A DNA stretch of 32,752 nt from Paludibacter sp. GTDB taxonomy: Bacteria; Bacteroidota; Bacteroidia; Bacteroidales; Paludibacteraceae. Shown here one piece after another: positions 3,769 through 29,773 of the stretch (positions within the stretch are counted from its first letter, which is position 1; each line of letters begins with the position of its first letter). The notes under the pieces were generated by a model. The model worked only from the letters and a program-made list of their open reading frames with translations, made no database searches and was not told the DNA's origin. The stretch is from positions 1 through 32,752 of the forward strand of contig JARLGX010000022.1 of NCBI GenBank assembly GCA_031292575.1. The letters run 5' to 3'. The position numbers and the translations under genes are program-made.

Positions 3769-3829
3769 AATTATGTAACTTTTTCAAGAAATTATGTAAC
3801 ACATCGGAAAATTGAATGCTGTAACTTTG
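3769..3829 (+). promoter_or_regulatory. P1: direct-repeat operator plus -7 element upstream of the WG-rich protein gene
   Basis: AATTATGTAAC occurs at 3769-3779 and again, identically, at 3790-3800 (21 bp apart). The -7 element TAACTTTG lies at 3822-3829, 21 bp after the second copy, and is a full match to the Bacteroidota TAnnTTTG consensus. Six further promoters in the window have the same layout. This copy has perfect half-sites. Confidence 0.8.
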
Positions 3830-3899
3830 AACCATAAAAATAAATTCAATCTACACCTGAATTATACACAGTTATATAATGTCCTATAAATACATTTCC

Positions 3900-5354
3900 A
3901 TGAAATCAAACTTTAGTATCTTCGCTCTGATTCTTGTATTGACTACGTCGTGCGTAATATTACCCCGGCAAGCGGAAGCTCAACAAACAAATGTCAGTTT
4001 TCAGGTTTTCTACGATCAGTTAAGCCCTTACGGTCAGTGGATTAATTATGCCGATTATGGTTACGTATGGCTTCCCGACTCAGGATCGGACTTTGTACCA
4101 TATTCTACCGATGGTCATTGGGTGCTGACAGATTATGGCTGGACCTGGGCATCGGATTATATTTGGGGTTGGGCTACATTTCATTACGGACGTTGGGGTT
4201 TCGATAATTCAGTTGGCTGGTATTGGGTACCCGATAATGTATGGGGTCCTGCCTGGGTAAACTGGCGGCAGTCCGATGGTTATTATGGTTGGGAACCTAT
4301 GGAACCGGGTGTAAGTCTTAATGAAGGTTTCAACAATGCTTTTGGTGGAAGCAACGATCATTGGTTGTTTGTGAGAAACATGGATTTTGAAAGAACAGAT
4401 ATAAACCAATATTACCTGAATCATTCCGACCGTGATAGAATTGGAAGAAATTCAATTGTAATTAATAGAACTTACAATGATTACGACCGGCATGCAACCT
4501 ATGTTTCGGGTCCAACCAGGGAATCTGTGCAGAGAGCCACCGGAAGAACTATCAAACCACTTACTATTCAGGAAAACAATAAACCAGGACAAGAAATAAA
4601 TAACGGACAATTACGAATTTATCGACCTCAGGTTGATAAGAATAACAGCGGAGAGAGAAATGCTCCACGAACTGTAACAAACATGCAAGATATAAAACGG
4701 ATTCCTGCCAATAATGCCCCTAATCATAATCAGATTGATAACCGGGGTAGCAGACCCGCATCACAACCTGCAAACAGCACATATCCTCAAAATAATAATG
4801 CCCGGCCTATTCAACAGCAGAATATAAATCTACAGAATAATAACGCCCAACCCGTTCAACAAAACAGGACGATTAAACAACCAGCCGGTGGTCGTAGAAT
4901 TCAAACCGTTGAGCCACCCAAAGCAACACCGACTAATGTAAACAGACCTGTAGGGCAACCAACTGGTGTAAATCAGCAGAATAATAATGTTCAACCTGGT
5001 CAACAAAATAGAACAGTCAATCAGCCAAATTCGGATCGTAGAATTCAAACCATTGAACCTGCCAAAGCAGCACCAACTGATGTAAACCGACCTGTACAGC
5101 AACCAAATGTTACAACTCCGAATAATTATAATGTTCGGATACAACAACAAAATGTAAACCGACAAAACACAGATAGACAACAACCGGGAAATACTCCTCC
5201 TGCAAATATCCAAAATAACCCGCAACCAGTGCAAAATCAACGTGTAAACCAAAGTCGGAATAATAGACCGGTTATTCAACAGAAGTTGGTCAAGCAACAA
5301 GTAAAAAAAGAACAGGATAAACTTCCTGATAATACTGATCAGGGACGAAAATAG
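3900..5354 (+). CDS. secreted WG-rich DUF6600-like protein with Asn/Gln/Pro-rich tail
   Basis: I chose ATG 3900 (484 residues) over ATG 3879 because it gives a clean signal sequence, MKSNFSIFALILVLTTSC, with a lipobox-like Cys 18 (AEAQ offers an alternative cleavage site). Residues about 30-140 are extremely rich in aromatic and glycine pairs (YGQW, GYVW, GHWV, GWTW, GRWGF, GWYWVPD, WGPAWV, YGWEPM), the pattern of DUF6600 WxxGxW-type envelope proteins. The C-terminal half is disordered: repeated blocks of NNNAQPVQQ, RRIQT(V/I)EP and NVNRPVQQP, ending in a lysine-rich stretch. It probably acts at the cell surface or periplasm, but its function is unknown. It is first in a run of five closely spaced genes and is driven by P1. 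Confidence 0.85.
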   Translation: MKSNFSIFALILVLTTSCVILPRQAEAQQTNVSFQVFYDQLSPYGQWINYADYGYVWLPDSGSDFVPYSTDGHWVLTDYGWTWASDYIWGWATFHYGRWGFDNSVGWYWVPDNVWGPAWVNWRQSDGYYGWEPMEPGVSLNEGFNNAFGGSNDHWLFVRNMDFERTDINQYYLNHSDRDRIGRNSIVINRTYNDYDRHATYVSGPTRESVQRATGRTIKPLTIQENNKPGQEINNGQLRIYRPQVDKNNSGERNAPRTVTNMQDIKRIPANNAPNHNQIDNRGSRPASQPANSTYPQNNNARPIQQQNINLQNNNAQPVQQNRTIKQPAGGRRIQTVEPPKATPTNVNRPVGQPTGVNQQNNNVQPGQQNRTVNQPNSDRRIQTIEPAKAAPTDVNRPVQQPNVTTPNNYNVRIQQQNVNRQNTDRQQPGNTPPANIQNNPQPVQNQRVNQSRNNRPVIQQKLVKQQVKKEQDKLPDNTDQGRK

Positions 5355-5399
5355 GATAAATTAAAATTTAATTGAATAAACCGGCAATAAGCAAGAGAA

Positions 5400-5777
5400 A
5401 TGATAAAAATTAAACAATTAGCTATTTTCATGGATGATGCAAATGCTTTATTGATGGAACTTTACAATCATATGATTGTCTCCAGGAATATAGTATTTAA
5501 ATCGCAGGTAAATGAAGAATATATTGAGCAGCACTATGCTTTATCTCCGTATGACTCTGATATAAAACAGTATCAGTCAGCTTATTTTGATGAAATTGCA
5601 GATATAATTAAAAACTACAAGCAAGTAGTGCTTTTTGGTCCAACCGATACAAAAGAAGAGCTTTATAAACTTTTAGAAACCGACCACCATTTCAAGGATA
5701 GAAAGATAGAGTTTATCAAAACCGATAAGATGACAGATTTTCAGATACATGACTTTGTGTTGAATTATTATAAGTAA
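5400..5777 (+). CDS. small eRF1-domain-like protein (baeRF-related), unknown function
   Basis: The 125-residue cytoplasmic protein shows the pattern of the C-terminal eRF1/pelota-like domain in bacterial release-factor-like and 'host attachment' proteins: VVLFGPTDTKEELYKLL (about 76-92), then KIEFIKTDKMTDFQIHDFV (102-120), comparable to the family's 'GPgeaK.el...' and 'aDkMTdgQi...V' motifs. The N-terminal part (MIKIKQLAIFMDDANALLMEL) would supply a first beta strand and helix. No catalytic GGQ is present. It lies 45 bp after the WG-rich gene and 22 bp before marC, so it is likely in that transcript. A ribosome-related stress role is inferred from the fold alone. Confidence 0.65.
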   Translation: MIKIKQLAIFMDDANALLMELYNHMIVSRNIVFKSQVNEEYIEQHYALSPYDSDIKQYQSAYFDEIADIIKNYKQVVLFGPTDTKEELYKLLETDHHFKDRKIEFIKTDKMTDFQIHDFVLNYYK

Positions 5778-5799
5778 ATAAAATGGTAATATAGAAAAT

Positions 5800-6405
5800 A
5801 TGTGGGAATATTCATTTACTGTTTTTATGGCATTTTTTGCCATAATGAATCCCATTGCTAACATCCCTATTTTTGTAAAACTAACTGAAGGACAAGACGA
5901 AAAGAAGAAAAAAGAAATTGCGAAAACATCAAATATTGTTGCTTTTCTAATCATTTTGTCTTTTATTCTGATTGGTCAGTATATTTTTCAGATTTTCGGA
6001 CTGACTATTCCAGCTTTTAAAGTATTTGGAGGTATTCTGATCTTTTTTATCGGGTTTGAAATGCTTCAATCGAAGAAAACAACTGTTCCCATCAAAGGAA
6101 ATTCAAGTTTTGATGATGGAATTGCTATATCGCCCTTAGCCATTCCTATTTTAGCAGGTCCCGGAACCATTGTTACAGCCATGAATTTCGTGGTAAAAGC
6201 AAGTATTCTTTATTTGGGAATAACGATATTTATTTTTGGCTTGATAGTACTAATGACTTACTATGCGTTTATTTATAGTGGGTATATTGTTAGGTTTGTT
6301 GGCGATAAGAATTTTGTCATTGTTGGCAAAATTATGGGATTAATTATTGGAGTGTTAGGCGCCAATATGTTGATAGAAGGAATTAAACTGGCATTTAATA
6401 TATAA
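5800..6405 (+). CDS. MarC/YchE (NAAT)-family integral membrane protein
   Basis: The 201-residue protein has six predicted helices. The first carries the hallmark AFFAIMNPIANIPIF (about 10-24), and the second half has the related SPLAIPILAGPGTIVTAM (about 111-128), the internally repeated NP/GP signature of MarC proteins. The charged loop EGQDEKKKKEIAKTS after helix 1 is also typical. Length equals the family norm (about 200). MarC members are inner-membrane proteins, some shown to move neutral amino acids; substrate is not readable. It sits between the eRF1-like gene (22 bp) and the P-type ATPase (11 bp), so it should be co-transcribed. Confidence 0.9.
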   Translation: MWEYSFTVFMAFFAIMNPIANIPIFVKLTEGQDEKKKKEIAKTSNIVAFLIILSFILIGQYIFQIFGLTIPAFKVFGGILIFFIGFEMLQSKKTTVPIKGNSSFDDGIAISPLAIPILAGPGTIVTAMNFVVKASILYLGITIFIFGLIVLMTYYAFIYSGYIVRFVGDKNFVIVGKIMGLIIGVLGANMLIEGIKLAFNI

Positions 6406-6416
6406 AACACAAAGCT

Positions 6417-8939
6417 ATGGAACAAAATATTCAATCTTTTTGGAGTATTTCTACTACAGAACTGCTCAACAAACTTCAGGCAAAAGTAAATGGTCTGACT
6501 TCCAACGAAGCCAAACAAAGGCTTAAAGATTATGGTGCCAATAGTTTGAAACCACAAAAAAATTCAAACGCATTTACACTCTTTATTTCACAATTCAAAA
6601 GTCCAATTATCCTTATTTTATTGGCAGCTACTGTATTGTCTATTTTTTTACATAACCTGGTGGATGCTTCCATCATTCTTGCTATTGTTATAATAAGTGG
6701 ATTGCTCGGTTTCTGGCAGGAATTCAGTGCCTCCAATGCCGTAGCAAAGTTATTGGCAATTGTTCAGATTAAAACTACCGTACTGCGCAACGGTAAACAA
6801 CTTGAAATTCATATTGAGGATGTAGTACCCGGCGATATTGTAATTCTCAATGCCGGTGACATTGTACCCGGCGATTGCCAATTGCTCGAAGGAAAAGATG
6901 TGTTTGTGGATGAAGCCATGCTTACGGGCGAAACTTTCCCTGTTGAAAAATCTGTTGCGGTTTTATCGGTCGATACTGCATTAGCGCAACGAACAAACAC
7001 GCTGTTTATGGGTACACATATTGTAAGTGGGAATGCAAAAGCGTTAGTTATAAATACTGCCAAAAATACTGAATTTGGAAAAGTATCTGAACGGCTGAAA
7101 CTAAAACCGCTTGAAACTGAATTTGAAAGAGGAATCCGCAGGTTTGGTTATTTTCTGGGTGAAGTAACGCTTGTATTAGTGGTTCTTATTTTTGCCATCA
7201 ACGTGTATTTACATCGACCTGTGTTGGATGCTTTTCTTTTTTCACTGGCATTGGCTGTTGGGTTAACTCCGCAGTTATTACCGGCTATTATTAGCATTAA
7301 CCTGTCACACGGAGCCAAGAAAATGGCTGAAAAGAAAGTAATCGTGAAACGACTAGCTTCGATTGAAAACTTTGGCAGTATGAATATTATCTGTTCCGAT
7401 AAAACAGGCACACTTACCGAAGGAATTGTTGTGGTACAAGCTGCCGTTGATGTGAATGGCGACAACAATGATAAAGTATTCCTGTACGCTTATCAAAATG
7501 CATTTTACCAAACCGGCTTCACTAATCCAATTGACCAATCCATTGTAAAATACCGTAAAGTTGATTTGAAAGAGTATAAGAAGCATGACGAAATTCCATA
7601 TGATTTTATCAGGAAAAGACTGAGTATATCAGTTCAACAGGGCGATGAATATGTACTTGTTACCAAAGGTGCACTTACCAATATTCTTGAAGTATGTTCC
7701 ACCGTTGAAACCAAGGATGGAGCCGTTGTTGCGATTAAATCATTGCAGAATCAAATACAGAGAAAATTTGAAGAATTTAGTAATCAGGGATTTCGTACAT
7801 TGGGAATTGCCTATAAAAAATTACCGACCGGTGCACCAATTACAAAAGACGATGAGAAAGATATGACATTTGCCGGATTTCTGACCCTTTTTGATCCTCC
7901 CAAAGCAAACATTGCTGAAACAATTGCCGGCTTGAAGAAACTGGGTATTTCTCTCAAAATTATTACCGGTGACAATCATCTTGTAGCTACAAGCATCAGC
8001 AAAAAAATGGGACTGGATGATAATAAAATTATTACAGGGCCGGAACTTCATAAAATGAGCGATGCAGCATTGCTCCGGCAAATAACTTCAATTAATGTTT
8101 TTGCCGAAATAGAACCTAATCAGAAAGAACGGATTATTATAGCCATGAAAAAAGCCGGAAATGTAGTGGGTTACATGGGCGATGGCATAAATGATGCTTC
8201 GGCACTTCATGCTGCCGATGTAGGGATTTCTGTTGATACAGGTGCCGACGTAGCCAAAGATGCTGCCGATATTGTATTGCTCGAAAAAGATTTAAGTGTA
8301 CTGGTGGAAGGAGTTCGCGAAGGCAGAACTACATTTGCCAATACCCTGAAGTATGTTTTTATGGCTACCAGTGCCAATTTCGGAAATATGTTTAGCATGG
8401 CTGGCATTTCACTTTTTATTCCATTTCTTCCGCTGTTGCCAAAACAGATATTACTTACCAACCTATTGACTGATTTTCCCGAAATGACCATAGCTACTGA
8501 TAATGTGGATGATGAAATGGTGGATCATCCCCGGCGTTGGGACATAAAGGCTATCCGCAAGTTTATGATTACGTTTGGGCTGGTGAGTTCTGTGTTCGAT
8601 TACCTTACTTTTGGTTTGCTTTTACTTCTGCTACATGCCAACGAAAGCCAGTTTCGCACAGGCTGGTTTATGGAATCGGTTATCTCAGCCTCCATGATAG
8701 TATTGGTTATTCGAAGCAGGAAACCTTTTTTCAAAAGTAAACCCGGCAAGTATTTATTAATTGCCACCTTGTCGATAGCAGTTATAACCATTATTCTGCC
8801 ATTTACATCCCTTGGAACTGTTTTTGGATTCAGTCCACTCAGTTTCACTACGTATTTATTGTTAATGCTGATTGTGCTTTTGTATATTTTTGCTGCTGAA
8901 ATTACCAAAACAATTTTTTATAAAATAGTTAAGTTCTAA
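6417..8939 (+). CDS. mgtA: magnesium-type P-type ATPase (MgtA/MgtB-like, P3B)
   Basis: The 840-residue P-type ATPase has all core motifs: actuator loop LTGE (169-172), phosphorylation site CSDKTGTLT with Asp 328, and the hinge GDGINDASALHAAD (about 587-600). Helix 4 reads VGLTPQLLP followed by KKVIVKRLASIENFGSMNIICSDKTG, close to MgtA's GLTPEMLP segment and unlike Ca2+ or heavy-metal pumps. It has no N-terminal metal-binding domain. The late segment NLLTDFPEMTIATDNVDDEMVDHPRRW corresponds to the MgtA NLL-D-DNVD region. It likely imports Mg2+ across the inner membrane. The gene is 11 bp after marC. No Mg2+-sensing leader is visible, so expression probably comes from P1. Other cation specificity cannot be excluded. 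Confidence 0.85.
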   Translation: MEQNIQSFWSISTTELLNKLQAKVNGLTSNEAKQRLKDYGANSLKPQKNSNAFTLFISQFKSPIILILLAATVLSIFLHNLVDASIILAIVIISGLLGFWQEFSASNAVAKLLAIVQIKTTVLRNGKQLEIHIEDVVPGDIVILNAGDIVPGDCQLLEGKDVFVDEAMLTGETFPVEKSVAVLSVDTALAQRTNTLFMGTHIVSGNAKALVINTAKNTEFGKVSERLKLKPLETEFERGIRRFGYFLGEVTLVLVVLIFAINVYLHRPVLDAFLFSLALAVGLTPQLLPAIISINLSHGAKKMAEKKVIVKRLASIENFGSMNIICSDKTGTLTEGIVVVQAAVDVNGDNNDKVFLYAYQNAFYQTGFTNPIDQSIVKYRKVDLKEYKKHDEIPYDFIRKRLSISVQQGDEYVLVTKGALTNILEVCSTVETKDGAVVAIKSLQNQIQRKFEEFSNQGFRTLGIAYKKLPTGAPITKDDEKDMTFAGFLTLFDPPKANIAETIAGLKKLGISLKIITGDNHLVATSISKKMGLDDNKIITGPELHKMSDAALLRQITSINVFAEIEPNQKERIIIAMKKAGNVVGYMGDGINDASALHAADVGISVDTGADVAKDAADIVLLEKDLSVLVEGVREGRTTFANTLKYVFMATSANFGNMFSMAGISLFIPFLPLLPKQILLTNLLTDFPEMTIATDNVDDEMVDHPRRWDIKAIRKFMITFGLVSSVFDYLTFGLLLLLLHANESQFRTGWFMESVISASMIVLVIRSRKPFFKSKPGKYLLIATLSIAVITIILPFTSLGTVFGFSPLSFTTYLLLMLIVLLYIFAAEITKTIFYKIVKF

Positions 8940-8969
8940 ATTAAATCAATAATGTAATAATATATTCAA

Positions 8970-9179: not shown

Positions 9180-9219
9180 CAAATACTGCATTTTAGCAAT
9201 GAGACTTGTTTAAAAACTG

Positions 9220-16902: not shown

Positions 16903-16963
16903 CAAAATTAAAGGGTTGTATACATGCATGTGTTACAAAACTTTAGAAATAAGTTGTATGATT
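16903..16963 (-). promoter_or_regulatory. P2: direct-repeat operator plus -7 element for the mla operon
   Basis: On the minus strand the half-sites are AATCATACAAC (16963-16953) and AGTTTTGTAAC (16942-16932), 21 bp apart, followed after 21 bp by TAATTTTG (16910-16903), a full -7 match. It is preceded by GTGTGA as in P4-P7. It is divergent from P3 across a short gap. Confidence 0.75.
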
Positions 16964-16997
16964 CACACATTTCGAAATTCTACGTTGTTTACCTATG

Positions 16998-17058
16998 AAT
17001 ATTGTAACTCTTATTCTTAATTGTGTAAAGCCTGCCACAATTAAAAGCGTCAACTTTG
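16998..17058 (+). promoter_or_regulatory. P3: direct-repeat operator plus -7 element for DUF3494 lipoprotein 1
   Basis: Half-sites AATATTGTAAC (16998-17008) and AATTGTGTAAA (17019-17029), 21 bp apart, then 21 bp to CAACTTTG (17051-17058; one mismatch to TAnnTTTG). The conserved inverted repeat GTGAAAATTCATTCAC lies at 17063-17078, 4 bp after the -7 element. Confidence 0.75.
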
Positions 17059-17094
17059 CAACGTGAAAATTCATTCACAAGATAAATCAAAAGT

Positions 17095-17841
17095 ATGAAA
17101 ACTAAAAAACTAGTATCAGCCCTTGCAATAGTATCGGTTGTATTATTAAGCGGGTGTACTAACACGAATGCTCCAACAGTGAATGTTGATAATCCGAATG
17201 GCATTCCGCTTCAAACTACAGTGATGCCAACGGTTGCACTGGGCGGTGCAGCAAACTTTGCCGTGCTTGCCGGTTCGGCTATTACCAGCACAGGTGCAAC
17301 ATCCATTACAGGCGATATGGGATTAAGTCCCGGAACTTCCATTGGTGGATTTCCTCCCGGAATGATGACAGGAATGCAACTCATCAATACGAATGTGGCA
17401 ACTCAGGGTAAACTTGATTTGACTACTGCTTATAACGATGCTGCCGGACGAACCAGTACCGACATTGTAACCTTATCGGGAAATATAGGTGGGCTTACAC
17501 TTACCCCCGGACTTTACAAAAGTACTTCCTCATTGGCTATATCATCGGGTGATCTAACCATTGATGCCAAAGGAAATTCTAATGCCATCTTTATTATTCA
17601 GGTAGCTTCATCATTAACCGCTACTTCGAACCGCAAAGTATTTTTGAAAGGAGGTGCTTCGGCTTCTAATATTTTTTGGCAGGTGGGTAGTTCAGCCACT
17701 TTTGGAACTACGTCTGTTTTTAAAGGAACGATTATGGCCATGCAGTCCATTACGTTCAATACAGGAGCAACACTCGACGGTAGAGCACTTGCAAGAACAG
17801 GCGGGATTATTTTGGCAGGGAATACGATAGTAGCACAATAA
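17095..17841 (+). CDS. DUF3494 (ice-binding-protein-like) lipoprotein 1
   Basis: The 248-residue protein has a lipoprotein signal MKTKKLVSALAIVSVVLLSGC (Cys 21), then an Asn/Thr-rich linker and one DUF3494 domain (about 46-248): LGGAANFAVLAGSAITSTGATSITGDMGLSPG, later FIIQVASSLTATSN and the end IFWQVGSSATFGTTSVFKGTIMAMQSITFNTGATLDGRALARTGG. This is the irregular beta-helix family that includes ice-binding and adhesive proteins. It probably sits on the outer membrane. Ice binding is not implied for this copy, since many DUF3494 proteins occur in mesophiles. It shares leader, C21 and promoter layout with the 25611 gene, suggesting duplication or common regulation. A strong hairpin follows the gene. 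Confidence 0.9.
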   Translation: MKTKKLVSALAIVSVVLLSGCTNTNAPTVNVDNPNGIPLQTTVMPTVALGGAANFAVLAGSAITSTGATSITGDMGLSPGTSIGGFPPGMMTGMQLINTNVATQGKLDLTTAYNDAAGRTSTDIVTLSGNIGGLTLTPGLYKSTSSLAISSGDLTIDAKGNSNAIFIIQVASSLTATSNRKVFLKGGASASNIFWQVGSSATFGTTSVFKGTIMAMQSITFNTGATLDGRALARTGGIILAGNTIVAQ

Positions 17842-17939: not shown

Positions 17940-17948
17940 AAATGTGTG

Positions 17949-18008
17949 AATTATGTAACTTATTTTCAAAGTTTTGTAATGATTCTGTAGTAAAGTAGCG
18001 TACCTTTA
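17949..18008 (+). promoter_or_regulatory. P4: direct-repeat operator plus -7 element for the araC-type regulator
   Basis: Half-sites AATTATGTAAC (17949-17959, perfect) and AGTTTTGTAAT (17970-17980), 21 bp apart, then 20 bp to TACCTTTA (18001-18008; one mismatch). GTGTGA precedes it. Its position directly upstream of the regulator gene suggests autoregulation. Confidence 0.75.
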
Positions 18009-18035
18009 CCCACGCATATTTTAAACCAAACTATT

Positions 18036-18596
18036 TTGAAGTTATATATTAAATATATGGTAAGCACCCGCTGTAAAATGGCGGTGAAAGAAGAACTGAA
18101 AAAACTTGGTCTCCATTTCATTGTCGTGGAACTGGGCGAGGTGGAGGTTATGGAAAATCTTTCGGGGGAGCAACGTGAAGAACTGAAAGCCGGATTGCTC
18201 GATGCAGGTCTCGAATTGATGGACGATAAACGGGCGGTGTTGATTGAAAAAATTAAAAACGCTATTATTGAAATGGTACATTATGCCGATGAGCCAATCA
18301 AAGTAAATTTTTCAGATTATCTGAGCGAAAAGCTCAATCACGATTATACCTATCTGGCTAATTTATTCTCCGAAGTGCAGGGAACTACCATTGAGCATTT
18401 CATTATCAATCATAAAATTGAACGGATAAAAGAATTGATTATTTACGATGAACTAAACATTACGGAAATTGCCTGGAAGATGAACTACAGCAGTGTGGCT
18501 CATCTTTCCAATCAATTTAAAAAAGTAACAGGACTTTCGCCCTCGCACTTTAAACAGATGAAAGTTAAACGAAGAAATCAGATTGAAGATATTTAG
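18036..18596 (+). CDS. AraC-family transcriptional regulator with HMA-like N-terminus
   Basis: TTG start, 186 residues: homologues I recall begin MKLYIKYMVS, so TTG 18036 is preferred over the ATG at 18057, which would lose the first strand. Residues 1-62 (MKLYIKYMVSTRCKMAVKEELKKLGL) resemble a small ferredoxin-like metal-binding (HMA) fold, with a single Cys 13 where CxxC is expected. Residues 92-175 form the AraC DNA-binding domain: first helix-turn-helix about 103-125, second 141-165 (LNITEIAWKMNYSSVAHLSNQFKKVTG), ending GLSPSHFK. It lacks a cupin ligand domain. It is 32 bp upstream of the hybrid kinase gene and driven by P4, and is my candidate activator of P1-P7. Confidence 0.9.
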   Translation: MKLYIKYMVSTRCKMAVKEELKKLGLHFIVVELGEVEVMENLSGEQREELKAGLLDAGLELMDDKRAVLIEKIKNAIIEMVHYADEPIKVNFSDYLSEKLNHDYTYLANLFSEVQGTTIEHFIINHKIERIKELIIYDELNITEIAWKMNYSSVAHLSNQFKKVTGLSPSHFKQMKVKRRNQIEDI

Positions 18597-18628: not shown

Positions 18629-21600
18629 ATGGAAAGAACTAAAACACATGAATCTCAATATGCCAGCAACCTGATAGAAGCCAGCCTTGATCCGTTAATT
18701 ACTATAGACATCCATGGTAAAATTACTGATGTGAACCAGGCAAAAGTAAATATTACAGGCATAGAACGGGAGAAACTGATAGACACTAATTTCTTTGACT
18801 ATTTCACCGAACCCGAAAAAGCCAAGGATGTATATCGGCAAGTATTTGCTAACGGGTCTGTGAAAGATTTTCCACTAACGTTTTGCAGTCAGAGCAATAA
18901 GTTGACCGATGTGCTTTTCAACGGTTCGGTTTATAAAGATTTAAATGGAAATGTAATTGGTGCTGTATTGGTAGCAAGAGATATTGAAGAACAAAAATGG
19001 GCCGTTGAATTGCGAAATGCCAACAAAGAACTGGCTTTTCAGAACGAGGAAAAAGAGAAACGCGCTGCCGAACTGATTATTGCCAACAAAGAACTGGTAT
19101 TCCAAAATAATGAGAAAGAAAAGCGGGCCAACGAATTGAGTATAGCCAACAAGGAACTTGCTTTTCAGAATAACGAAAAAGAAAAACGTGCTGCAGAACT
19201 GATTATTGCTAATAAAGAATTGGTTTTTCAAAATAATGAAAAAGAGAAACGCGCCGCAGAATTAATTCTTGCCAACAAAGAACTTATATTTCAAAACAAA
19301 GAGAAAGAAAAACGTGCAGCAGAATTAAAAATTGCCGACAAAGAACTGGTTTATCAAACGGGAGAGAAAAAGAAACGTGCGGCCGAGTTAAAGATAGCAG
19401 ATAAAGAGCTGGTATTTCAAACAGAAGAAAAAGAAAAGCGCGCTGCCGAATTAAAAATAGCCGATGAAGAACTGGTATTTCAAAATGCCGAAAAAGAAAG
19501 ACGCGAAACCGCCACCAAAGAACTTGAAGCTTTCAGTTATTCGTTGAAATTAGCTTCGCAATACTCGCTGAGCCTTATCGAAGCCAGCCTGGACCCATTA
19601 GTTACTATCAATATCGATGGTAAAATTACCGATATGAATGAGGCCACAGCCAACATTACCGGACTGACGCGCGAAGAATTAACAGGTACCGATTTCTTCG
19701 ATTATTTTACGAAACCGCAAATGGCACGCGAAGTGTATCAGGAAGTTTTTGCCAACGGGTCGGTTGCCGATTCGCCACTTACTCTTCGCCACAAAAACGG
19801 AAAACTGACTGATGTTCTTTTCAATGGGTCGGTTTATAAAGATGGACGAGGCAATGTGCTGGGTGTGGTAATTGTAGCCCGCGATGTTACCGCTCAAAAA
19901 TTGGCATCGGAATATGCCCGGAGTCTTATTGAAGCCAGTCTCGACCCTTTATTTACCATTAACCTACAAGGAAAAATTACCGATTTAAATAATGCTTCGG
20001 TAAAAATAACAGGTCTTACCCGCGAGGAATTAATAGGAAGTGATTTCTTTGAATATTTCACTGAGCCGGAGAAGGCTAAAGAGGTTTATCAGGATGTTTA
20101 TGCCAATGGGTACGTAACAGATTTCCCTTTGACAATACGTGATGGAAAGCTTACCGATGTGTTGTTTAACGGTTCGGTATATAAAGATGATCGTGGAAAT
20201 GTGCAGGGAGTGGTAGTAGTTGCCCGCGATATTACCGATCAAAAGAAAATAGAAACACAATTAAACGAAGCCATAGTATTTGCTGAAATGGCCACTGAAA
20301 TTGCCGAAATTGCCAAAAGAAAAGCAGAAACTTCCACCCTGATAGCCGAAACAGCCGTAAAAGCTAAACAGCAGTTCCTGTCGAATATGAGTCACGAGAT
20401 TCGTACACCAATGAATGCCATTATCGGGTTTACAAAGGTGTTACTCAAATCGGAACTCTCACCTAAACAAAAAGAATACCTGTCAGCCATCAAAATGAGT
20501 GGCGATGCTTTGATTGTACTTATTAACGACATACTCGATTTGGCTAAAGTAGATGCAGGCAAAATGGTTTTTGAAAAAATTCCGTTTAAAATGGAACTTT
20601 CAATTTCGGCTATGCTTCATTTGTTTGAAACTAAAATACTGGAAAAGAACCTGAAACTGGTAATCGATTACGATAAAACTATTCCCGAAGTATTGGTAGG
20701 CGACCCGGTTCGTCTCCATCAGATTATTTTAAACCTGATGAGCAATGCTGTGAAGTTTACAACAAAAGGGAAAATATACGTGAGTGTTCGCTTGCTATCC
20801 GGAAATGATGACAGTGCCAGTGTTCAATTCTCCATAAAAGATACTGGAATTGGGATTGTGGATGAAAAAATTGAAAGAATATTTGAAAACTTCCAACAAG
20901 CTTCGAGTGGTACTTCCCGCTTGTATGGTGGAACCGGACTAGGACTTGCCATTGTAAAACAGTTGGTGGAATCGCAGGGTGGAACCATACAGGTGACGAG
21001 CAAAGTAAATGTGGGATCTACTTTTAGTTTTATACTCAACTTTTTGAAAACCGATGTTCAGGCCGAAGAAGAAATTATTGATGAAGTATTTAACGAAGAA
21101 ATTAAAAATCTGAAAGTACTGGTAGTAGAAGATATACCGCTTAATCAGCTATTGATGAAAACGCTGCTGGACGATTTTGGATTCGAACGTGATATTGCCG
21201 ACAACGGGAAAATAGCTATAGCGAAAATGGAAACAAAAGCCTACGATATTATTCTAATGGACTTGCAAATGCCCGAAATGAATGGGTTTGAAGCGACCGA
21301 TTATATCCGCAACACGATGCATTCCGACATTCCCATTATTGCCCTCACGGCCGATGTTACTACGGTTGATTTAGCTAAATGCAAGTATGTGGGCATGAAC
21401 GATTATATAGCCAAGCCCGTTGATGAGCGAGTGCTTTATTCTAAAATAATCGGACTGGTTAAGAAATCGGCCACTGTTGAAAATACCGAAAAAGAGGTGG
21501 AAGTAGTTAGTGATATAAAAATAATTAGATGCACCGATTTGGGTTATCTGAATATCAGAACCAAGTCGAACCCGGCATTGATGTTGGAGATGATTTCGCT

Positions 21601-21883
21601 GTATCTGGAGCAAACACCCCCACTCATTAGTGCGATGAAAAAGTGCCTCGAAGAAAAAAACTGGGAAGGCTTACACTCTGCTGTACATAAAATGATACCT
21701 TCGTTTGCTATCGTGGGCATTAATGTCGATTTCGAGAATATGGCCCGTAAAATACAGGATTATGCCGGAACAATGCAACAATCGGAAATTATAGAAGATA
21801 TGGTTTTACAGCTCGGAAATGTTTGTAGCCAAGCTTGCAAAGAATTGGAAGAAGAATATAATTTGATAAAAAATAAAAACTGA
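18629..21883 (+). CDS. PAS hybrid histidine kinase with receiver and Hpt domains
   Basis: The 1084-residue soluble kinase has no membrane segment. Three closely related PAS domains (about 10-120, 312-423, 430-538) each contain SLDPL.TI...GKITD.N and TEPEKAK.VY. Between the first two, a coiled coil (about 128-295) consists of eight tandem 21-residue units (KEL.FQN.EKEKRAAEL). Then come HisKA (SNMSHEIRTPMN, phospho-His 589), the ATPase (N-box around 706, DTGIGI, GGTGLGL), a receiver (about 828-945, Asp 878 in MDLQMPEMNG) and an Hpt domain (His 1020 in HSAVHKMIPS). A full phosphorelay is thus present in one chain. The stop overlaps the start of the next gene, a receiver-only protein, which is the obvious partner. 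It follows the araC gene from P4. Confidence 0.92.
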   Translation: MERTKTHESQYASNLIEASLDPLITIDIHGKITDVNQAKVNITGIEREKLIDTNFFDYFTEPEKAKDVYRQVFANGSVKDFPLTFCSQSNKLTDVLFNGSVYKDLNGNVIGAVLVARDIEEQKWAVELRNANKELAFQNEEKEKRAAELIIANKELVFQNNEKEKRANELSIANKELAFQNNEKEKRAAELIIANKELVFQNNEKEKRAAELILANKELIFQNKEKEKRAAELKIADKELVYQTGEKKKRAAELKIADKELVFQTEEKEKRAAELKIADEELVFQNAEKERRETATKELEAFSYSLKLASQYSLSLIEASLDPLVTINIDGKITDMNEATANITGLTREELTGTDFFDYFTKPQMAREVYQEVFANGSVADSPLTLRHKNGKLTDVLFNGSVYKDGRGNVLGVVIVARDVTAQKLASEYARSLIEASLDPLFTINLQGKITDLNNASVKITGLTREELIGSDFFEYFTEPEKAKEVYQDVYANGYVTDFPLTIRDGKLTDVLFNGSVYKDDRGNVQGVVVVARDITDQKKIETQLNEAIVFAEMATEIAEIAKRKAETSTLIAETAVKAKQQFLSNMSHEIRTPMNAIIGFTKVLLKSELSPKQKEYLSAIKMSGDALIVLINDILDLAKVDAGKMVFEKIPFKMELSISAMLHLFETKILEKNLKLVIDYDKTIPEVLVGDPVRLHQIILNLMSNAVKFTTKGKIYVSVRLLSGNDDSASVQFSIKDTGIGIVDEKIERIFENFQQASSGTSRLYGGTGLGLAIVKQLVESQGGTIQVTSKVNVGSTFSFILNFLKTDVQAEEEIIDEVFNEEIKNLKVLVVEDIPLNQLLMKTLLDDFGFERDIADNGKIAIAKMETKAYDIILMDLQMPEMNGFEATDYIRNTMHSDIPIIALTADVTTVDLAKCKYVGMNDYIAKPVDERVLYSKIIGLVKKSATVENTEKEVEVVSDIKIIRCTDLGYLNIRTKSNPALMLEMISLYLEQTPPLISAMKKCLEEKNWEGLHSAVHKMIPSFAIVGINVDFENMARKIQDYAGTMQQSEIIEDMVLQLGNVCSQACKELEEEYNLIKNKN

Positions 21884-22314: not shown

Positions 22315-22315
22315 T

Positions 22316-22755: not shown

Positions 22756-23070
22756 GAATTGGAACAAAACCAATTGGAATTAGAACAAAACCAATTGGAA
22801 TTAGAATAAAACCAATTGGAATTAGAACAAAACCAATTGGAATTGGAACAAAACCAATTGGAATTGAAACAAAACCAACTGGAATTGAAACAAAACCAAT
22901 TGGAATTGGAACAAAACCAATTGGAATTGGAACAAAACCAATTGGAATTGAAACAAAACCAATTGGAATTAGAACAAAACCAATTGGAATTAGAACAAAA
23001 CCAACTGGAATTGGCACAAAACCAACTGGAATTGAAACAAAACCAACTGGAATTGAAACAAAAGCAACTG
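22756..23070 (+). repeat. tandem repeat, 15 x 21 bp (tract 2)
   Basis: Fifteen 21-bp units of the type GAATTGGAACAAAACCAATTG run from 22756 to 23070 without indels. Differences are at single bases (GGAAC/GAAAC/TAGAAC, CAATTG/CAACTG), with later units favouring CAACTG. One unit carries TAA. Every unit has an AAAA run and AATT sequences near one helical turn from each other, so intrinsic curvature is possible. P5 starts 19 bp after the last unit. Confidence 0.9.
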
Positions 23071-23088
23071 GAATTAATTGGATGTGTG

Positions 23089-23149
23089 AATGTTGTAAGT
23101 CTTACTCTGAATTATGTAAGATGTGGCCTATCCTCGTCATCTATCTTTG
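23089..23149 (+). promoter_or_regulatory. P5: direct-repeat operator plus -7 element for the OmpA-family gene
   Basis: Half-sites AATGTTGTAAG (23089-23099) and AATTATGTAAG (23110-23120), 21 bp apart, then 21 bp to TATCTTTG (23142-23149), a perfect -7 match. GTGTGA precedes it. The 5' untranslated region to ATG 23256 would be about 100 nt. Confidence 0.8.
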
Positions 23150-23255: not shown

Positions 23256-24686
23256 ATGAAGAAAAAACTTTTTCTAAGCTTAATGCTTATGACTGTTGCT
23301 GTTGGTTACACCACTGCTCAAGAAGTAATTGCAACCGTTCCTGCACAAGCAGTGGTTAGCACTAACACAGGAACCGGTCAAGAAGTAGTAACTCTGGTAC
23401 CGGCACAAGTAGCAGTTATTAAAACTCCAACTGCCTGCGAATTTACTCCCGTATCGCACTGGTCATTCGGAATTAAAGGCGGTACCAATTATTTTCGTGT
23501 AGCTCCCGGAGTTAGCTCGCGAAGTGATGAATTTCATTTAATCGTTGGCGGAAATCTGGAATACAGCATTAATCCGCTTGTTGGACTTGGCGTAGAATAC
23601 ATGTACAATCCGTATGGTCACCCCTATCAACTAAATGCTACCCAAACGGGCACATTAGAAGGGTACACACACGATGCTGATATATATGCTTCGGTAAATC
23701 TGATGAATTTATTAGTCCCAAATAGAATTGCCTTTTGGAGTAAAATGGATATATACGGCGATGCCGGCGTAGGTGTTGGTTTCTATCAGTTTAAATTATC
23801 CGATGCTAGTGGCAACGTAATTGTTGATTCACGCAATGGGGGTGATGGTGTGCCGGAAACGCCAATGGCCAAATTGGGCTTAAACCTCGAATATAACATA
23901 AGTAAATCGCTGGCTTTTGGCGGAGAAGTTCAATATCGTTATTACGACCGAGCAAACTTAGGAGGTTATAGTATGACAAAGGGAAATAGTGATGCGTTGA
24001 CAGCTACTATTGGGTTGAAATTCAAATTTGGAGCAAATGGTAACAAACAACATGCACGTAACATTAGCATGTGTGAGTATTATCCTAAACCAGCTCCTGT
24101 TATCATCGAAAAAATTATAAAAGATAATACCATTGAAACTATCAATAGACTGAATGCCCTTGAAACAGAAAATGATTCTATCAACAGACGGAATCAACGG
24201 TTATCTGATGAGATGAAAGTTCTGTCGTATCGCAATAATAAACCGGCAACTACTGTAATTGTACAAAACAATGATGCGTTAAGTGACAAAATCCAAAAGT
24301 TGGAAAACGACTTGAAAGCATTGTCGGCAAAAAACAAAGGAGTTGTAAATGCCAGTTTTGATAACATTGAATTCGAACTTGGTTCAGATAAATTGACCAG
24401 TAATTCATTTTCAACATTGGATAGAATTGCAGATGTTTTGGTACGGAATCCGGGATGGGCAAAATTGAACGTAGCCGGACATACCGATTCCAGCGGTTCA
24501 GCCAAATTCAATCTGAAACTTTCGAGAAGAAGAGCTAATTCAGTAAAAAATTATCTCTTAGATAAAAATGTTCCTTCAGCAAGTATCTCTGTATCGGGTT
24601 ATGGCGAAGACAGGCCTATCGCATCAAATAATACAAGCGAAGGTCGTCAAAAAAATCGTCGTGTCGAATTTCAAATTTCGAAATAG
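23256..24686 (+). CDS. OmpA-family outer-membrane protein (barrel plus peptidoglycan-binding domain)
   Basis: The 476-residue protein has a signal peptide (MKKKLFLSLMLMTVAVGYTTAQ) and an Ala/Val-rich segment with a repeated QEVIATVPAQ/QEVVTLVPAQ motif (about 21-52). A beta-barrel region follows (about 65-265; WSFGIKGGTNYFRV, YSINPLVGLGVEYMY, aromatic strand ends), then a coiled coil (about 285-355, ETINRLNALETENDSINRRN) and a C-terminal OmpA domain (about 365-476). The domain has VNASFDNIEFELGSDKL, the VAGHTDSSGSAKFNLKLSRRRANSVKNYL motif and GYGEDRPIASN. It probably links outer membrane and peptidoglycan. It is transcribed from P5 and followed by a nested inverted-repeat region. Confidence 0.92.
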   Translation: MKKKLFLSLMLMTVAVGYTTAQEVIATVPAQAVVSTNTGTGQEVVTLVPAQVAVIKTPTACEFTPVSHWSFGIKGGTNYFRVAPGVSSRSDEFHLIVGGNLEYSINPLVGLGVEYMYNPYGHPYQLNATQTGTLEGYTHDADIYASVNLMNLLVPNRIAFWSKMDIYGDAGVGVGFYQFKLSDASGNVIVDSRNGGDGVPETPMAKLGLNLEYNISKSLAFGGEVQYRYYDRANLGGYSMTKGNSDALTATIGLKFKFGANGNKQHARNISMCEYYPKPAPVIIEKIIKDNTIETINRLNALETENDSINRRNQRLSDEMKVLSYRNNKPATTVIVQNNDALSDKIQKLENDLKALSAKNKGVVNASFDNIEFELGSDKLTSNSFSTLDRIADVLVRNPGWAKLNVAGHTDSSGSAKFNLKLSRRRANSVKNYLLDKNVPSASISVSGYGEDRPIASNNTSEGRQKNRRVEFQISK

Positions 24687-24711
24687 AATACCCTGTTTTT
24701 ATTGATATTTT

Positions 24712-24877: not shown

Positions 24878-24929
24878 TTTTTAAAATTTCATTGTTCAAT
24901 TATTAATTAAACTTCTAAACTTATTTATT

Positions 24930-25115: not shown

Positions 25116-25170
25116 AAAAAATCCGAGCCTATCAGGTTAATATTTAATTTAAACTCTAACATTAATTATC

Positions 25171-25323: not shown

Positions 25324-25437
25324 TCTTTTAGTACAATTTATTTTCAGGTAAAAAAATATCAGATAAAGTGCGACAGGGGATTTGTTATCACATCGTATTG
25401 AGATTTTATCTAATGATTAAGCTCAGAAATCAGCATT

Positions 25438-25471
25438 GAGCGTTGTCCTTAAATTAAAAAGGGCAACGCTC
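25438..25471 (+). terminator. terminator-like hairpin
   Basis: GAGCGTTGTCCTT (25438-25450) pairs with AAAGGGCAACGCTC (25458-25471) with one G-U pair; the tract after it is only moderately T-rich (TTCTGTAT). The core is shared with the 22424 terminator although the upstream genes are unrelated. Confidence 0.6.
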
Positions 25472-25513
25472 TTCTGTATATAGCAATCCTTCGAGGTTAA
25501 CTGATAAAGTGTG

Positions 25514-25574
25514 AATAATACAACTCTTTTGAAAAATTATGTAACACACCTGCCTTTTAAATGTCTCACCTTTG
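25514..25574 (+). promoter_or_regulatory. P6: direct-repeat operator plus -7 element for the Big/InlB/DUF3494 lipoprotein gene
   Basis: Half-sites AATAATACAAC (25514-25524) and AATTATGTAAC (25535-25545), 21 bp apart, then 21 bp to CACCTTTG (25567-25574; one mismatch). GTGTGA precedes it. The inverted repeat GTGAAAATTCTTTCAC lies at 25579-25594, 4 bp after the -7 element, as at P3 and P7. Confidence 0.8.
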
Positions 25575-25610
25575 CTACGTGAAAATTCTTTCACAATTAA
25601 ACTCAAATAT

Positions 25611-27494
25611 ATGAAAATTAGAAAGCTACTTTCAACCCTTGCAATCGTATCGGTTGTTCTGTTTGTCGGATGCAAGAATGATGATTATGTCAGTGTTAAT
25701 GTAGGGCCATGTCCTTTGGTAATATCTGTCACTCCAGTGAACGGCGCCACGCTGGTTGGTCGTAGTTTAGGAAGTTCGATAATTGCAAGCAATCAGGCTG
25801 CACGGACAACCCTGGTTACAGCAACCTTTAACAAGAAGATGGATCCAAAGACTATTAACGAATCTTCTTTTATGGTAAAAGTAACCGGAGGATCGGCAAT
25901 AGTGGGAACTGTTACTTACACCGACTCGACAGCAACATTTACCGCACCGGCTAAATTTGCTGACAACACTACTTTTGAAGCCAGAGTTACTACAGCTGCA
26001 AAAGACAAAATGGGAAATGCCTTGCAAGCCGATTATGTATGGACTTTTAGTACAGGTGCAACTATATTGCCTGTAGTCATTGCTACCGATCCGTTGAATT
26101 TAGCCACCGGTGTTGCTCTTAACAAAGTAATCACTGCTACCTTTAGCATGCCAATGGATCCAACAACCATTACCGCTACTACCTTTACGTTGATGAATGG
26201 TACTTCTCCGGTTTCAGGTACAGTTTCTACTGTCGGGGCTGTTGCAACCTTTACGCCTGGCGTAGCACTTAGTCCCGCCACAGTTTATACTGCCAAAATG
26301 AGTATGGCTGCAATGAATTTAGATGGTTCTACAATAGCAAAAGATACAACATGGAAATTTACAACGCTTAGTGTTTATTCAATAAATATTACATCGGTCA
26401 ATGGAGTTGTTGTGAAAAATCCTAATGCATTAACTTACAACAGTGGTACCAATGTTCAACTTACTGCAACTGCAAATGTGGGATATACATTTTCATCATG
26501 GAGTGGAGATGCAACAGGTACAACAAATCCACTAACAGTTAATGTAAATGCAAATAAAAACATTACAGCAAATTTCACATCCAATGCCAGTAATTTTACA
26601 TTAAATGTCACAGCAGTAGGCGGTTCAGTTTCAAGAAATCCGAATCAGCTAACTTATCCGAATGGTACTAATGTAGTTCTTACTCCAACTGCAAATGCAG
26701 GTTATACATTTACTTCGTGGAGTGGTGATGTAACAAGCACAGTAAGTCCATTGACGGTAAATATGAATTCAAATAAGAATATCACTGCAAACTTTACAGC
26801 TGCCACCGGTACTGGACCAGGTAATATTAATCTTGGAGGAGCAGCTATTTATACCATTTTATCAAAAAGCGGAATTTCAACTATTGGTGTTACTTCCATT
26901 ACCGGTAATATCGGTGTGAGCCCTGCAACAGCAACAGCAATAACCGGATTTGGATTAATTATGGATCCAAGCAATGTATTTTCAAAATCAAGTCCTTCGA
27001 CACTGGTTTCGGGAAATGTTTATGCTGCTGATTATGCAGTACCTACCCCGGCCAATATATCGACCGCGGTGATTGATATGCAAACTGCATTTACGACTGC
27101 TAATGGTTTGACAACATCAGTAATTACAGAATTAGGTGCTGGCGACATTACGGGAATGACTTTAGTTCCGGGACTTTATAAATGGAGCACAGGCCTTTTG
27201 ATCTCAGCTTCGGGTGTAACGCTTACCGGAGGTCCTAATGACACTTGGGTTTTCCAAATTGGTCAGGGAATGACCGTTGCTAACGGAGCTATTATTCATT
27301 TAGCAGGTGGTGCACAGGCCAAAAACATTTACTGGATAACTGCTTCGGATGCTGTGATTGGATCGACCGTCAACTTTAGCGGAAACATTTTGAGTTATAC
27401 TAAGATTACGGTCAATACAGGTTCAACAGTTACCGGAAGGTTGCTTGGACAGACCGCAGTGACATTGAATGCAGCAACAGTTGTATTACCTTAA
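25611..27494 (+). CDS. secreted lipoprotein: Ig-like (Big_5) x2, InlB-type repeats x2, DUF3494
   Basis: ATG 25611 is chosen (627 residues); an earlier TTG at 25572 overlaps the P6 -7 element and is discarded. The signal MKIRKLLSTLAIVSVVLFVGC ends at Cys 21. Domains: two SbsA/Big_5 Ig-like domains (about 35-146 and 153-253; ATFNKKMDPKTINESSFMV, ATFSMPMDPTTITATTFTL), two InlB-B-type repeats (about 254-325 and 328-398; GTNVQLTATANVGYTFSSWSGDATG, NANKNITANF), and a C-terminal DUF3494 domain (about 404-627). It is a modular surface protein, likely adhesive, with the DUF3494 tip held away from the membrane. The leader and Cys position match the smaller lipoprotein at 17095. The OmpA gene downstream, 57 bp away, is probably co-transcribed. 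Confidence 0.9.
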   Translation: MKIRKLLSTLAIVSVVLFVGCKNDDYVSVNVGPCPLVISVTPVNGATLVGRSLGSSIIASNQAARTTLVTATFNKKMDPKTINESSFMVKVTGGSAIVGTVTYTDSTATFTAPAKFADNTTFEARVTTAAKDKMGNALQADYVWTFSTGATILPVVIATDPLNLATGVALNKVITATFSMPMDPTTITATTFTLMNGTSPVSGTVSTVGAVATFTPGVALSPATVYTAKMSMAAMNLDGSTIAKDTTWKFTTLSVYSINITSVNGVVVKNPNALTYNSGTNVQLTATANVGYTFSSWSGDATGTTNPLTVNVNANKNITANFTSNASNFTLNVTAVGGSVSRNPNQLTYPNGTNVVLTPTANAGYTFTSWSGDVTSTVSPLTVNMNSNKNITANFTAATGTGPGNINLGGAAIYTILSKSGISTIGVTSITGNIGVSPATATAITGFGLIMDPSNVFSKSSPSTLVSGNVYAADYAVPTPANISTAVIDMQTAFTTANGLTTSVITELGAGDITGMTLVPGLYKWSTGLLISASGVTLTGGPNDTWVFQIGQGMTVANGAIIHLAGGAQAKNIYWITASDAVIGSTVNFSGNILSYTKITVNTGSTVTGRLLGQTAVTLNAATVVLP

Positions 27495-27551
27495 TACTCA
27501 AAGTTTATCCATTTATTGTAAATGTATTAAAATGAAATAATTTAATAGAAT

Positions 27552-29597
27552 ATGAAAACTAAAAATAATATCAAAAAGGAATCGCGCTTGGCGCGGTTCC
27601 CTTATGCCCTGAGCATAAAAAGTCTTATTCTGTTTGCTGTAATTTTAGTTGGGATTCAAACACCCATTCAGGCACAGGATTCTATTCAGTACACAGCACC
27701 ATCGTGGTACTTTGGAGTGGCAGCAGGTGGAAATATTAATTTCTATCGTGGTTCTACACAACAATTAAATGCCCAACTAACTGTTCCAACTACGTTTCAC
27801 AATGGTACAGGTGTTGGTTTATACCTTGCTCCACTGATTGAATACCGTCCTTCAAATTCAAGATGGGGAATCATGTTTGAAGCTGGTTATGATAGTCGTA
27901 GAGGCTCATTCAACGGAGTAATAACTCCTTGTAACTGCCCGGAAGATTTAATTTCCGATCTTAGCTATCTAACCGTTGAGCCAAGTCTTCGATTTGCTCC
28001 CTTTAAATCTTCTTTTTATTTGTATGCAGGGCCAAGGTTGGCATTTAATATAAATAAAGCGTTTACTTATCAGGTAGGCATTAATCCGGCTTATCCCAAC
28101 CAGTTACCGAGTCCTGCAGTGAAAGGCGATTTTAGTAACATAAATAATACCCTTCTCTCAATGCAAGTTGGTGCAGGATATGATATTCATCTTACATCGG
28201 AATACAGCAAAACACAATTGGTGCTTTCACCGTTTGTTTCTTTTCAACCCTATTTTGGACAGGATCCACGTAGCATTGAAACATGGAATATAACCACGCT
28301 TCGGGTTGGAGCTGCATTGAAACTGGGTACAGGGCATAAAATTCAATCGCCTGTAAGGGCCGATGTATTTGTTCCTACAGTTGTTGCAGAACCTGAGGTG
28401 ACTTTTACAGTTAACTCCCCTGAAAATATCGTGACCGAACGCAGAGTGAGGGAAATATTCCCACTACGTAACTATGTATTCTTCGATTTAGGTTCTGATA
28501 AAATTCCGGGTCGTTATGTGAAACTTAACAAAGATCAGGTAAAAGATTTCAAAGAAGACAATTTGTCAATGTCAACTCCCGAAAACATGTCGGGTCGTTC
28601 AGAACGCCAATTGAAAGTATATTACAACATACTCAATATCCTTGGTGAAAGAATGTCTAAAGATCCTTCAACAAAAGTGGTATTAGTAGGTTCGTCGGAA
28701 CAAGGCAAAAAAGATGGACTTGCTATGGCAGAATCCGTTAAAACCTATTTGGTTACTGTTTTTGAAATAGATCCATCGAGAATTACGCTCGAAGGCAGGA
28801 TTGAACCAATTAATCCTTCTTTACAACCGGGCGGAACAAAAGATCTTGTTTTGCTTCGTGAAGGCGATAGGCGCGTTTCTATCGAAAGCAATTCACCTTC
28901 TTTGCTCATGGAGTTCAGGAGCGGAGCTGATTCACCTTTAAAACCGGTTACAATTAATGAAGATACGGAAGCACCGCTCGACAGTTATGTAACATTTGAC
29001 GTAAAAGGATCTGATAAAGCTTTCAATTCATGGTCGATGGAAATTACAGACCAGGCAGGAACTAAACAATACTTTGGACCTTACACACAAGAAAAAGTAA
29101 GCATTCCCGGTAAATCTATTTTAGGAACGAACCCTCAAGGTGATTATAAAGTAAAAATGATTGGGAATGGTAAGAATAGTAAAGTAATTGTCAAAGACAC
29201 TACCATACACATGGTTCTGTGGGTTGCAGCTGTCAATAGCGTAGGAACACGATTCAGCATAATTTACGAATTCAACAATTCAAAAGCAACTGTTCTGTAC
29301 CAAAAGTATCTGACAAATGTAGTAATTCCTAAAATTCCAATTGGTGCTACTGTGATTATTCAAGGTCATACCGATATTATTGGAGAAACGGATTATAACC
29401 AACGATTGTCATTGGCTCGTGCAAACGATGTGAAAACTATTTTAGAAAATGGGTTGACAAAGGTTGGACGTCATGATGTTACTTTCAATGTATCAGGTTA
29501 TGGTGCCGATCAAAAATTAGCTCCTTTCGATAATAAATATCCCGAAGAACGCTTCTATAACCGAACCGTGATAATTGATATTGTACCTAAACAGTAA
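27552..29597 (+). CDS. OmpA-family protein with barrel and two OmpA-like domains
   Basis: The 681-residue protein has an unusually long N-terminus before its hydrophobic signal segment (MKTKNNIKKESRLARFPYALSIKSLILFAVILVGIQTPIQAQ, cleavage near 42). A beta-barrel-like region (about 50-270) with alternating aromatics follows. An OmpA-like fold at about 350-445 (VVLVGSSEQGKKDGLAMAESVKTYL) lacks the classical D/R pair, whereas the C-terminal OmpA domain (about 560-681) has IIQGHTDIIGETDYNQRLSLARANDVKTIL and GYGADQKLAPFDNKYPEERFYNRTV. Between them is a beta-rich segment. It is likely an outer-membrane anchor to peptidoglycan. Two perfect or near-perfect hairpins lie within codons 9-22. Terminated by the hairpin at 29630. 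Confidence 0.88.
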   Translation: MKTKNNIKKESRLARFPYALSIKSLILFAVILVGIQTPIQAQDSIQYTAPSWYFGVAAGGNINFYRGSTQQLNAQLTVPTTFHNGTGVGLYLAPLIEYRPSNSRWGIMFEAGYDSRRGSFNGVITPCNCPEDLISDLSYLTVEPSLRFAPFKSSFYLYAGPRLAFNINKAFTYQVGINPAYPNQLPSPAVKGDFSNINNTLLSMQVGAGYDIHLTSEYSKTQLVLSPFVSFQPYFGQDPRSIETWNITTLRVGAALKLGTGHKIQSPVRADVFVPTVVAEPEVTFTVNSPENIVTERRVREIFPLRNYVFFDLGSDKIPGRYVKLNKDQVKDFKEDNLSMSTPENMSGRSERQLKVYYNILNILGERMSKDPSTKVVLVGSSEQGKKDGLAMAESVKTYLVTVFEIDPSRITLEGRIEPINPSLQPGGTKDLVLLREGDRRVSIESNSPSLLMEFRSGADSPLKPVTINEDTEAPLDSYVTFDVKGSDKAFNSWSMEITDQAGTKQYFGPYTQEKVSIPGKSILGTNPQGDYKVKMIGNGKNSKVIVKDTTIHMVLWVAAVNSVGTRFSIIYEFNNSKATVLYQKYLTNVVIPKIPIGATVIIQGHTDIIGETDYNQRLSLARANDVKTILENGLTKVGRHDVTFNVSGYGADQKLAPFDNKYPEERFYNRTVIIDIVPKQ

Positions 29598-29629
29598 TCT
29601 TTCTCTATTTGTTTTACGTTTTTCTGATA

Positions 29630-29662
29630 AGACAGTGCCAGGAGGGCACTGTCTTTATTTTT
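29630..29662 (+). terminator. rho-independent terminator after the OmpA-family gene
   Basis: GACAGTGCC pairs with GGCACTGTC around the loop AGGAG, followed by TTTATTTTT. Confidence 0.85.
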
Positions 29663-29712
29663 ACTATTTGCAAGCTTCTGTTTTATAACTTTTATCAATT
29701 AATCAATGTGTG

Positions 29713-29773
29713 AATTTTGCAAGTCTTTTTATAAATTATGTAAGACAAGACGGGTAAAAACTACCCACCTTTG
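29713..29773 (+). promoter_or_regulatory. P7: direct-repeat operator plus -7 element for the csbD gene
   Basis: Half-sites AATTTTGCAAG (29713-29723) and AATTATGTAAG (29734-29744), 21 bp apart, then 21 bp to CACCTTTG (29766-29773; one mismatch). GTGTGA precedes it. The inverted repeat GTGAAAATTCATTCAC lies at 29778-29793. Confidence 0.8.

Follow-up and report, generated by a model that had tools for sequence, protein, structure and literature searches.

Which protein acts on the spaced direct-repeat operator that recurs before seven genes or operons in a 32,752-base stretch of Paludibacter sp. DNA (the window, contig C4 of a 3.46-Mb genome in 40 contigs)? We conclude that the operators are probably the sites of an activator, P0001, whose own gene (18036-18596, plus strand) lies among the targets and which joins an HMA-like N-terminal domain to an AraC-type DNA-binding domain. 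The operators would belong to class II promoters of a Bacteroidota stress and envelope regulon that includes the operon of the activator itself.

All seven operators of the original prediction were read at their expected places, position 16903 being the -7 end of the one minus-strand site. Each has two half-sites 21 bp apart followed by a -7 element. Sequence and a composite search place them, with Pfam names for the downstream genes, at 3766-3829 (DUF6600, MarC and P-type ATPase genes), 16903-16966 on the minus strand (mlaE, ABC ATPase and mlaD genes), 16995-17058 (DUF3494 gene, 17095-17841), 17946-18009 (the gene of the AraC regulator, an arrangement repeated at homologous loci, see below), 23086-23149 (OmpA-family gene, 23256-24686), 25511-25574 (Big_5/DUF3494 gene, ATG at 25611) and 29710-29773 (csbD, ATG at 29811), all six of these others on the plus strand. 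The gene names given earlier were borne out by Pfam for MarC, the P-type cation ATPase, MlaE, the ABC ATPase, MlaD, the two DUF3494 proteins, AraC, OmpA and CsbD; the supposedly WG-rich protein after 3769 is instead DUF6600, and no WG family was found there. Read by eye, A1, T3, T6, A9 and A10 are invariant in all 14 half-sites, as had been claimed, and the site ends with TTTG at 61 bp in six cases and with TTTA at 60 bp in the 17949 site. GTG stands immediately 5' of the first half-site in five of the seven.

Exact matches to AATNNTRYAA-N11-ANTTNTGTAA in the window are these seven sites and no others. With up to two mismatches there are 16 matches against 0.66 expected from shuffles, a comparison that overstates the case because nine of these matches come from a minisatellite of 21-bp period at 3290-3520 and are not operators; the seven exact matches stand. 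Two such arrays with a 21-bp period, unrelated to each other, occupy 3290-3520 and 22756-23075; the first mimics spaced half-sites and the second lies directly upstream of the operator at 23086. The operators might therefore be thought a product of chance or of repeat expansion, given minisatellites that resemble the half-site. We consider the likelihood of this negligible, as none of the seven operators belongs to an array and the same fixed geometry is found again in other genomes; the scans of the own genome, of 198 genomes and of 80 loci described below refute this reading, and the minisatellites themselves were rejected as operators.

Across the own genome the same core pattern, which does not include the TTTG, has 15 exact matches, seven of them in the window. 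Seven of the eight outside it carry a TTTG ending at the same distance; in the eighth (C6:31988), which lies inside an open reading frame (ORF), the TTTG comes one base later, and this match is probably due to chance. Among ten matches with one mismatch, five are minisatellite, two have the TTTG (C18:11038 and C35:153541) and three lack it. Requiring GTG ahead of the core and TTTG behind it gave a composite pattern. With this pattern read backwards as the control, 17 sites were found at up to two mismatches (10 outside the window) with no control match, and 23 at up to three mismatches with one. The original observation is confirmed. Composite sites are concentrated in the window, at 0.214 per kb compared with 0.0029 per kb elsewhere in the genome.

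Targets outside the window were named by reading the proteins. Some sites stand before more than one recognisable gene: a small secreted protein is succeeded by a beta-barrel type, a YtxH-type gene by membrane genes, a small membrane protein by a DnaJ-type gene and a UspA-type gene by a YihY-type gene. The other targets are a YXWGXW-type secreted protein, a Dps-type gene, a separate small secreted protein, a lipoprotein and, behind the weakest site, a TlpA-type gene; one further site (C18:450) lies near a contig end. On this reading several of the targets, though not all, are stress-type genes.

We then consider the operator around homologs of P0001, using the best 80 of 402 stretches that encode one (L109-L188); operator density there describes a sample selected for the homolog. 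Nearly all of these loci are labelled as Bacteroidota groups (one is Ignavibacteria), and many come from closely related Flavobacterium or Paludibacter. A matrix built from the first 38 columns of 16 own-genome sites, with the -7 columns left out, finds 238 operators at a score of at least 10 and 233 at a score of at least 14, against one and none, respectively, in reversed sequence. The midpoints of 224 of the 238 lie outside ORFs of at least 100 amino acids and 14 lie inside, in DNA of which 83.5% is made up of such ORFs; operator density is therefore far from equal inside and outside genes, and the assignment to promoters survives. An ATG-started ORF of at least 45 amino acids begins within 350 bp after the -7 position in 225 of 238 cases; its median distance from the start of the operator is 107 bp.

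The stress and envelope character of the targets recurs downstream of the operators in these other genomes. The largest clusters of downstream proteins, named by eye and partly checked with Pfam on 115 representatives, are the regulator itself (59), DUF3494 (34) and CsbD-like proteins (13). Clusters of eight each follow for OmpA-like, MlaE-like, small membrane and small secreted proteins, then one of seven for another secreted protein and one of five for further small membrane proteins. The 400 bp before the regulator gene contain an operator in 58 of the 80 loci at a score of at least 10, and in 59 at a score of at least 8, so the regulator appears to control its own gene. At L157, three operator matches stand at 21-bp steps upstream of the regulator. 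The original prediction had listed the AraC gene as a target, and the operator before it is indeed present; to this we add that the AraC protein, which had not been named in that role, is the likely regulator and operator binder.

Two further searches were made in genomes not selected for P0001 homologs. At up to one mismatch, 17 of 296 genomes across the phylum have sites, with no control match in any listed row. The second set was an even draw of 198 genomes from the order, searched for both P0001 and the composite operator; 374 operators occur in 72 of them, compared with seven reversed-control matches. Operator number follows the P0001 homolog (Spearman 0.55, p 2e-17), a value independent of any cut-off for the homolog. 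With a cut-off of E<=1e-67, set after the table was seen, 35 of 41 genomes with a homolog have at least two operators versus 6 of the 157 others. Within families, the homolog-bearing genome has more operators in 18 of 20 contrasts, fewer in one and the same number in one. CsbD is present in 29 of the 198 genomes, 25 of which are among the 41 homolog-bearing ones, and 18 of 29 csbD loci examined outside the window have an upstream operator at a score of at least 6 (35 matches listed). At G119:C23, G064:C15 and G147:C16, several regulator paralogs lie within tens of kilobases with operators nearby.

P0001 is a protein of 186 residues with a TTG start, identified as an HMA-AraC regulator from Pfam, its homologs, the predicted structure and co-occurrence with the operator; its homologs begin MKLYIKYMVS. 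The AraC double helix-turn-helix domain is present. In the predicted structure it is joined to an N-terminal domain (residues 1-63) with the beta-alpha-beta-beta-alpha-beta fold of HMA domains, i.e. of copper chaperones, as structure comparison also indicates, although the scores of the ACT domain and of AcuB come close. At E<=10, PF00403 is reported for 6 of 28 members of the family, with a best value of 3.2e-4, and at E<=0.01 for 3 of 72; it is not reported for P0001 itself. The CxxC metal site is not kept: P0001 and all 80 close homologs have SxxC, with the first cysteine replaced by serine and the second retained.

Most of the distant relatives in the alignment have MVCxRC where P0001 has MVSTRC. 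Beyond the 80 close homologs, 53 further regulator genes were available from 133 found, a few of which are counted twice, since at least the L209 stretch is the same contig as L123. A motif rule flagged a copper-type ATPase in the stretches of eight of the 53. All eight of these regulators have CxxC, all eight ATPases pass TIGR01511, and no kinase was flagged beside any of them. Five of the eight have an operator match with a score of at least 8 no more than 300 bp after the regulator; the other three have a match of score 4 to 18 before the ATPase, the weakest of which may be due to chance. The GTG prefix is mostly absent from this variant of the operator. In 20 of the 53 (e.g. L217, L200, L193 and L189; one pair shares a contig), the TGA stop codon of the regulator lies within the operator of the gene that follows or overlaps it, which ties operator and regulator gene closely together.

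Does the protein still sense a soft metal, copper or some other, with its one cysteine, which two protomers might share, and control a metal and envelope regulon rather than a general stress one? The HMA-like fold, the retention of the second cysteine in 80 of 80 close homologs and the relatives beside copper ATPases all speak for this. We nevertheless find it rather unlikely, given the serine at the first position in all 80, the lack of any flagged copper ATPase in the 80 stretches examined (linkage to copper export genes is seen in the eight distant relatives), and the nature of the commonest targets, which are DUF3494, CsbD, OmpA, Mla and small membrane proteins and not metal export. On a tree of 69 rows, for which the bootstrap had not settled, the SxxC/CxxC distribution needs three changes compared with about 20 in shuffles; copper-flagged rows fall in the CxxC part and kinase-next rows are mostly SxxC. 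On this tree, whose root is not fixed, a copper sensor may have been the origin of the stress regulator. We tentatively suggest, with somewhat less than even confidence, that much of the Bacteroidota has a sigma-factor-free general stress response in which a copper sensor lost its metal site and was captured by a PAS hybrid-kinase phosphorelay within a single autoregulated operon; its 21-bp operator and fixed promoter geometry would have passed from the control of copper export to that of envelope and stress genes. The lone cysteine may then act as a thiol switch, or as a shared-metal switch between two protomers.

The P0001 gene heads an operon that continues with a hybrid histidine kinase (18629-21883, plus strand) and a stand-alone receiver protein, P0122 (21883-22314, plus strand). 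Pfam finds three PAS stretches, HisKA, HATPase and receiver domains in the kinase, and a weak Hpt (E 0.057, below cut-off). At 19018-19484 the kinase gene contains a 63-bp tandem repeat, so that a stretch of FQNxEKEKRAAEL type recurs in the protein between PAS domains. All 80 loci have a kinase-type gene belonging to one sequence cluster (single linkage at 30% identity, one representative read), and a kinase recognised by its H-box pattern is directly downstream of the regulator in 62. From the operon we guess that the HMA-like domain is the point at which kinase and receiver act, supplying the signal in place of metal.

A kinase and receiver in the same operon would also suit a different binder, such as a LytTR response regulator, with the AraC gene merely a target; LytTR proteins are known for direct repeats at 21-22 bp spacing. 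We set LytTR and the receiver aside as less likely operator binders. Pfam shows no DNA-binding domain in the stand-alone receiver, and no LytTR among the 28 window ORFs to which that scan was confined. The operator variant stands beside the AraC gene in five of the eight copper-linked relatives, where no kinase was flagged, and operator number tracks the AraC homolog over the 198 genomes. Another direct-repeat regulator is thus improbable.

The geometry of the promoter suggests how P0001 might act. AraC-type proteins are known for class II activation, in which one protomer sits on each of two tandem half-sites and the promoter next to the downstream protomer has no -33 box. Among the 238 operators, 158 have a TTTG that begins at offset 60 and 15 have one at offset 59, with at most nine at any other offset from 38 to 99, and T60 and T61 are each present in 232; this supports the earlier view that a second half-site about 21 bp above the -7 element is placed as for an activator. 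Two P0001 protomers would bind the two direct half-sites, the downstream one where a -33 box would be, and would thereby allow primary-sigma RNA polymerase to use a promoter with only a -7 element. Activation would extend to the operon of regulator, PAS hybrid kinase and receiver, and to a regulon of DUF3494, CsbD, OmpA, Mla, small membrane proteins and Dps- and YtxH-type genes. The sign of regulation cannot be read from position alone, and the sites could belong to a repressor or be boundary elements. This is very improbable in our judgement: the fixed distance from second half-site to -7 element fits a class II activator, and AraC proteins with such a layout are mostly activators.

Inverted repeats start at offset 68, five nucleotides after the TTTG, in 24 of the 238 operators, compared with 0-5 at any other offset. 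The window has three at the predicted +1, all on the plus strand, at 17063-17078, 25579-25594 (one mismatch in the flanks of the arms) and 29778-29793. As the repeat sequences differ while their position is fixed, they suggest a 5'-terminal mRNA hairpin, which would place the transcription start there. We considered whether the GTGAA-TTCAC inverted repeat might be a second operator bound by a protein, and rejected this; its sequence and loop length vary at a fixed position, which an RNA hairpin fits better.

Several observations weigh against P0001 as the activator of this regulon. Binding and activation by P0001 are themselves predictions. A -33 TTTG is found in 1 of 238 operators, but the matrix accounts for part of this scarcity, since its columns 29-34 cover some of the same positions. 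Just upstream of 22 of the 80 homologs (21 at a score of at least 8) there is no operator, although some contigs end there, and the receiver of the cluster occurs in 64 of the 80 loci. Among the 198 genomes, some of them fragmentary assemblies, G004, G046, G070, G107, G117 and G150 have 2-13 sites (13 in G107, 7 in G046) and no homolog at E<=1e-67; conversely, a homolog is accompanied by no site in G038, G073 and G085 and by one in G093, G129 and G192. Several regulator paralogs coexist in some genomes, so that one operator set may serve several regulators, and the seven best CsbD matches lack an operator. The HMA matches of P0001 have Foldseek E values above 0.001, and in L213 and L214 a kinase-like gene adjoins a CxxC regulator that does not belong to the stress clade, so the association with a kinase extends beyond that clade.

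To our knowledge, Bacteroidota lack RpoS and SigB, and we know of no textbook regulator of their general stress control. The analysis yields a candidate for this role, together with an operator defined precisely enough to be sought in any genome, a predicted start of transcription and a possible path of evolution that began with a copper sensor, and makes stress control in Bacteroidota experimentally testable. As the original prediction supposed, we recognised no description of the regulon, the operator or the HMA-AraC family in the literature searched, in which subscription journals were thinly covered; PMC4938975 is not relevant.

Compared with LytTR response regulators such as AgrA, the system has in common that direct repeats, spaced by about 21 bp, precede the promoter, but its candidate regulator is AraC-type. 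Residues 1-63 share their fold with HMA metallochaperones and copper-ATPase N-domains (GolB, Atx1, CopZ, PacS), whose CxxC is found in the copper-linked relatives; the P0001 clade differs in having SxxC and in the fusion to a DNA-binding domain. CsbD, Dps, YtxH and small membrane proteins belong to the SigB and RpoS general stress regulons, and the gene kinds overlap with those found here; a search of the own genome for SigB and RpoS gave no match over the NCBIfam cut-off, and control here would be by an activator with an ordinary -7 promoter. A further parallel is with AraC at araI1-araI2 and with SoxS, MarA and Rob, whose structures matched here and which act by class II activation: the AraC-type DNA-binding domain is shared, as are direct half-sites about 21 bp apart with the downstream one beside the -35 region. 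Two direct half-sites next to a promoter, as in AraC/XylS-type activators generally, are what we find, and we infer that P0001 binds them. Unlike AraC, it has an HMA-like rather than a sugar-binding N-terminal domain, and unlike all four it is encoded in an operon with a hybrid kinase and a receiver and faces a Bacteroidota-type -7 promoter.
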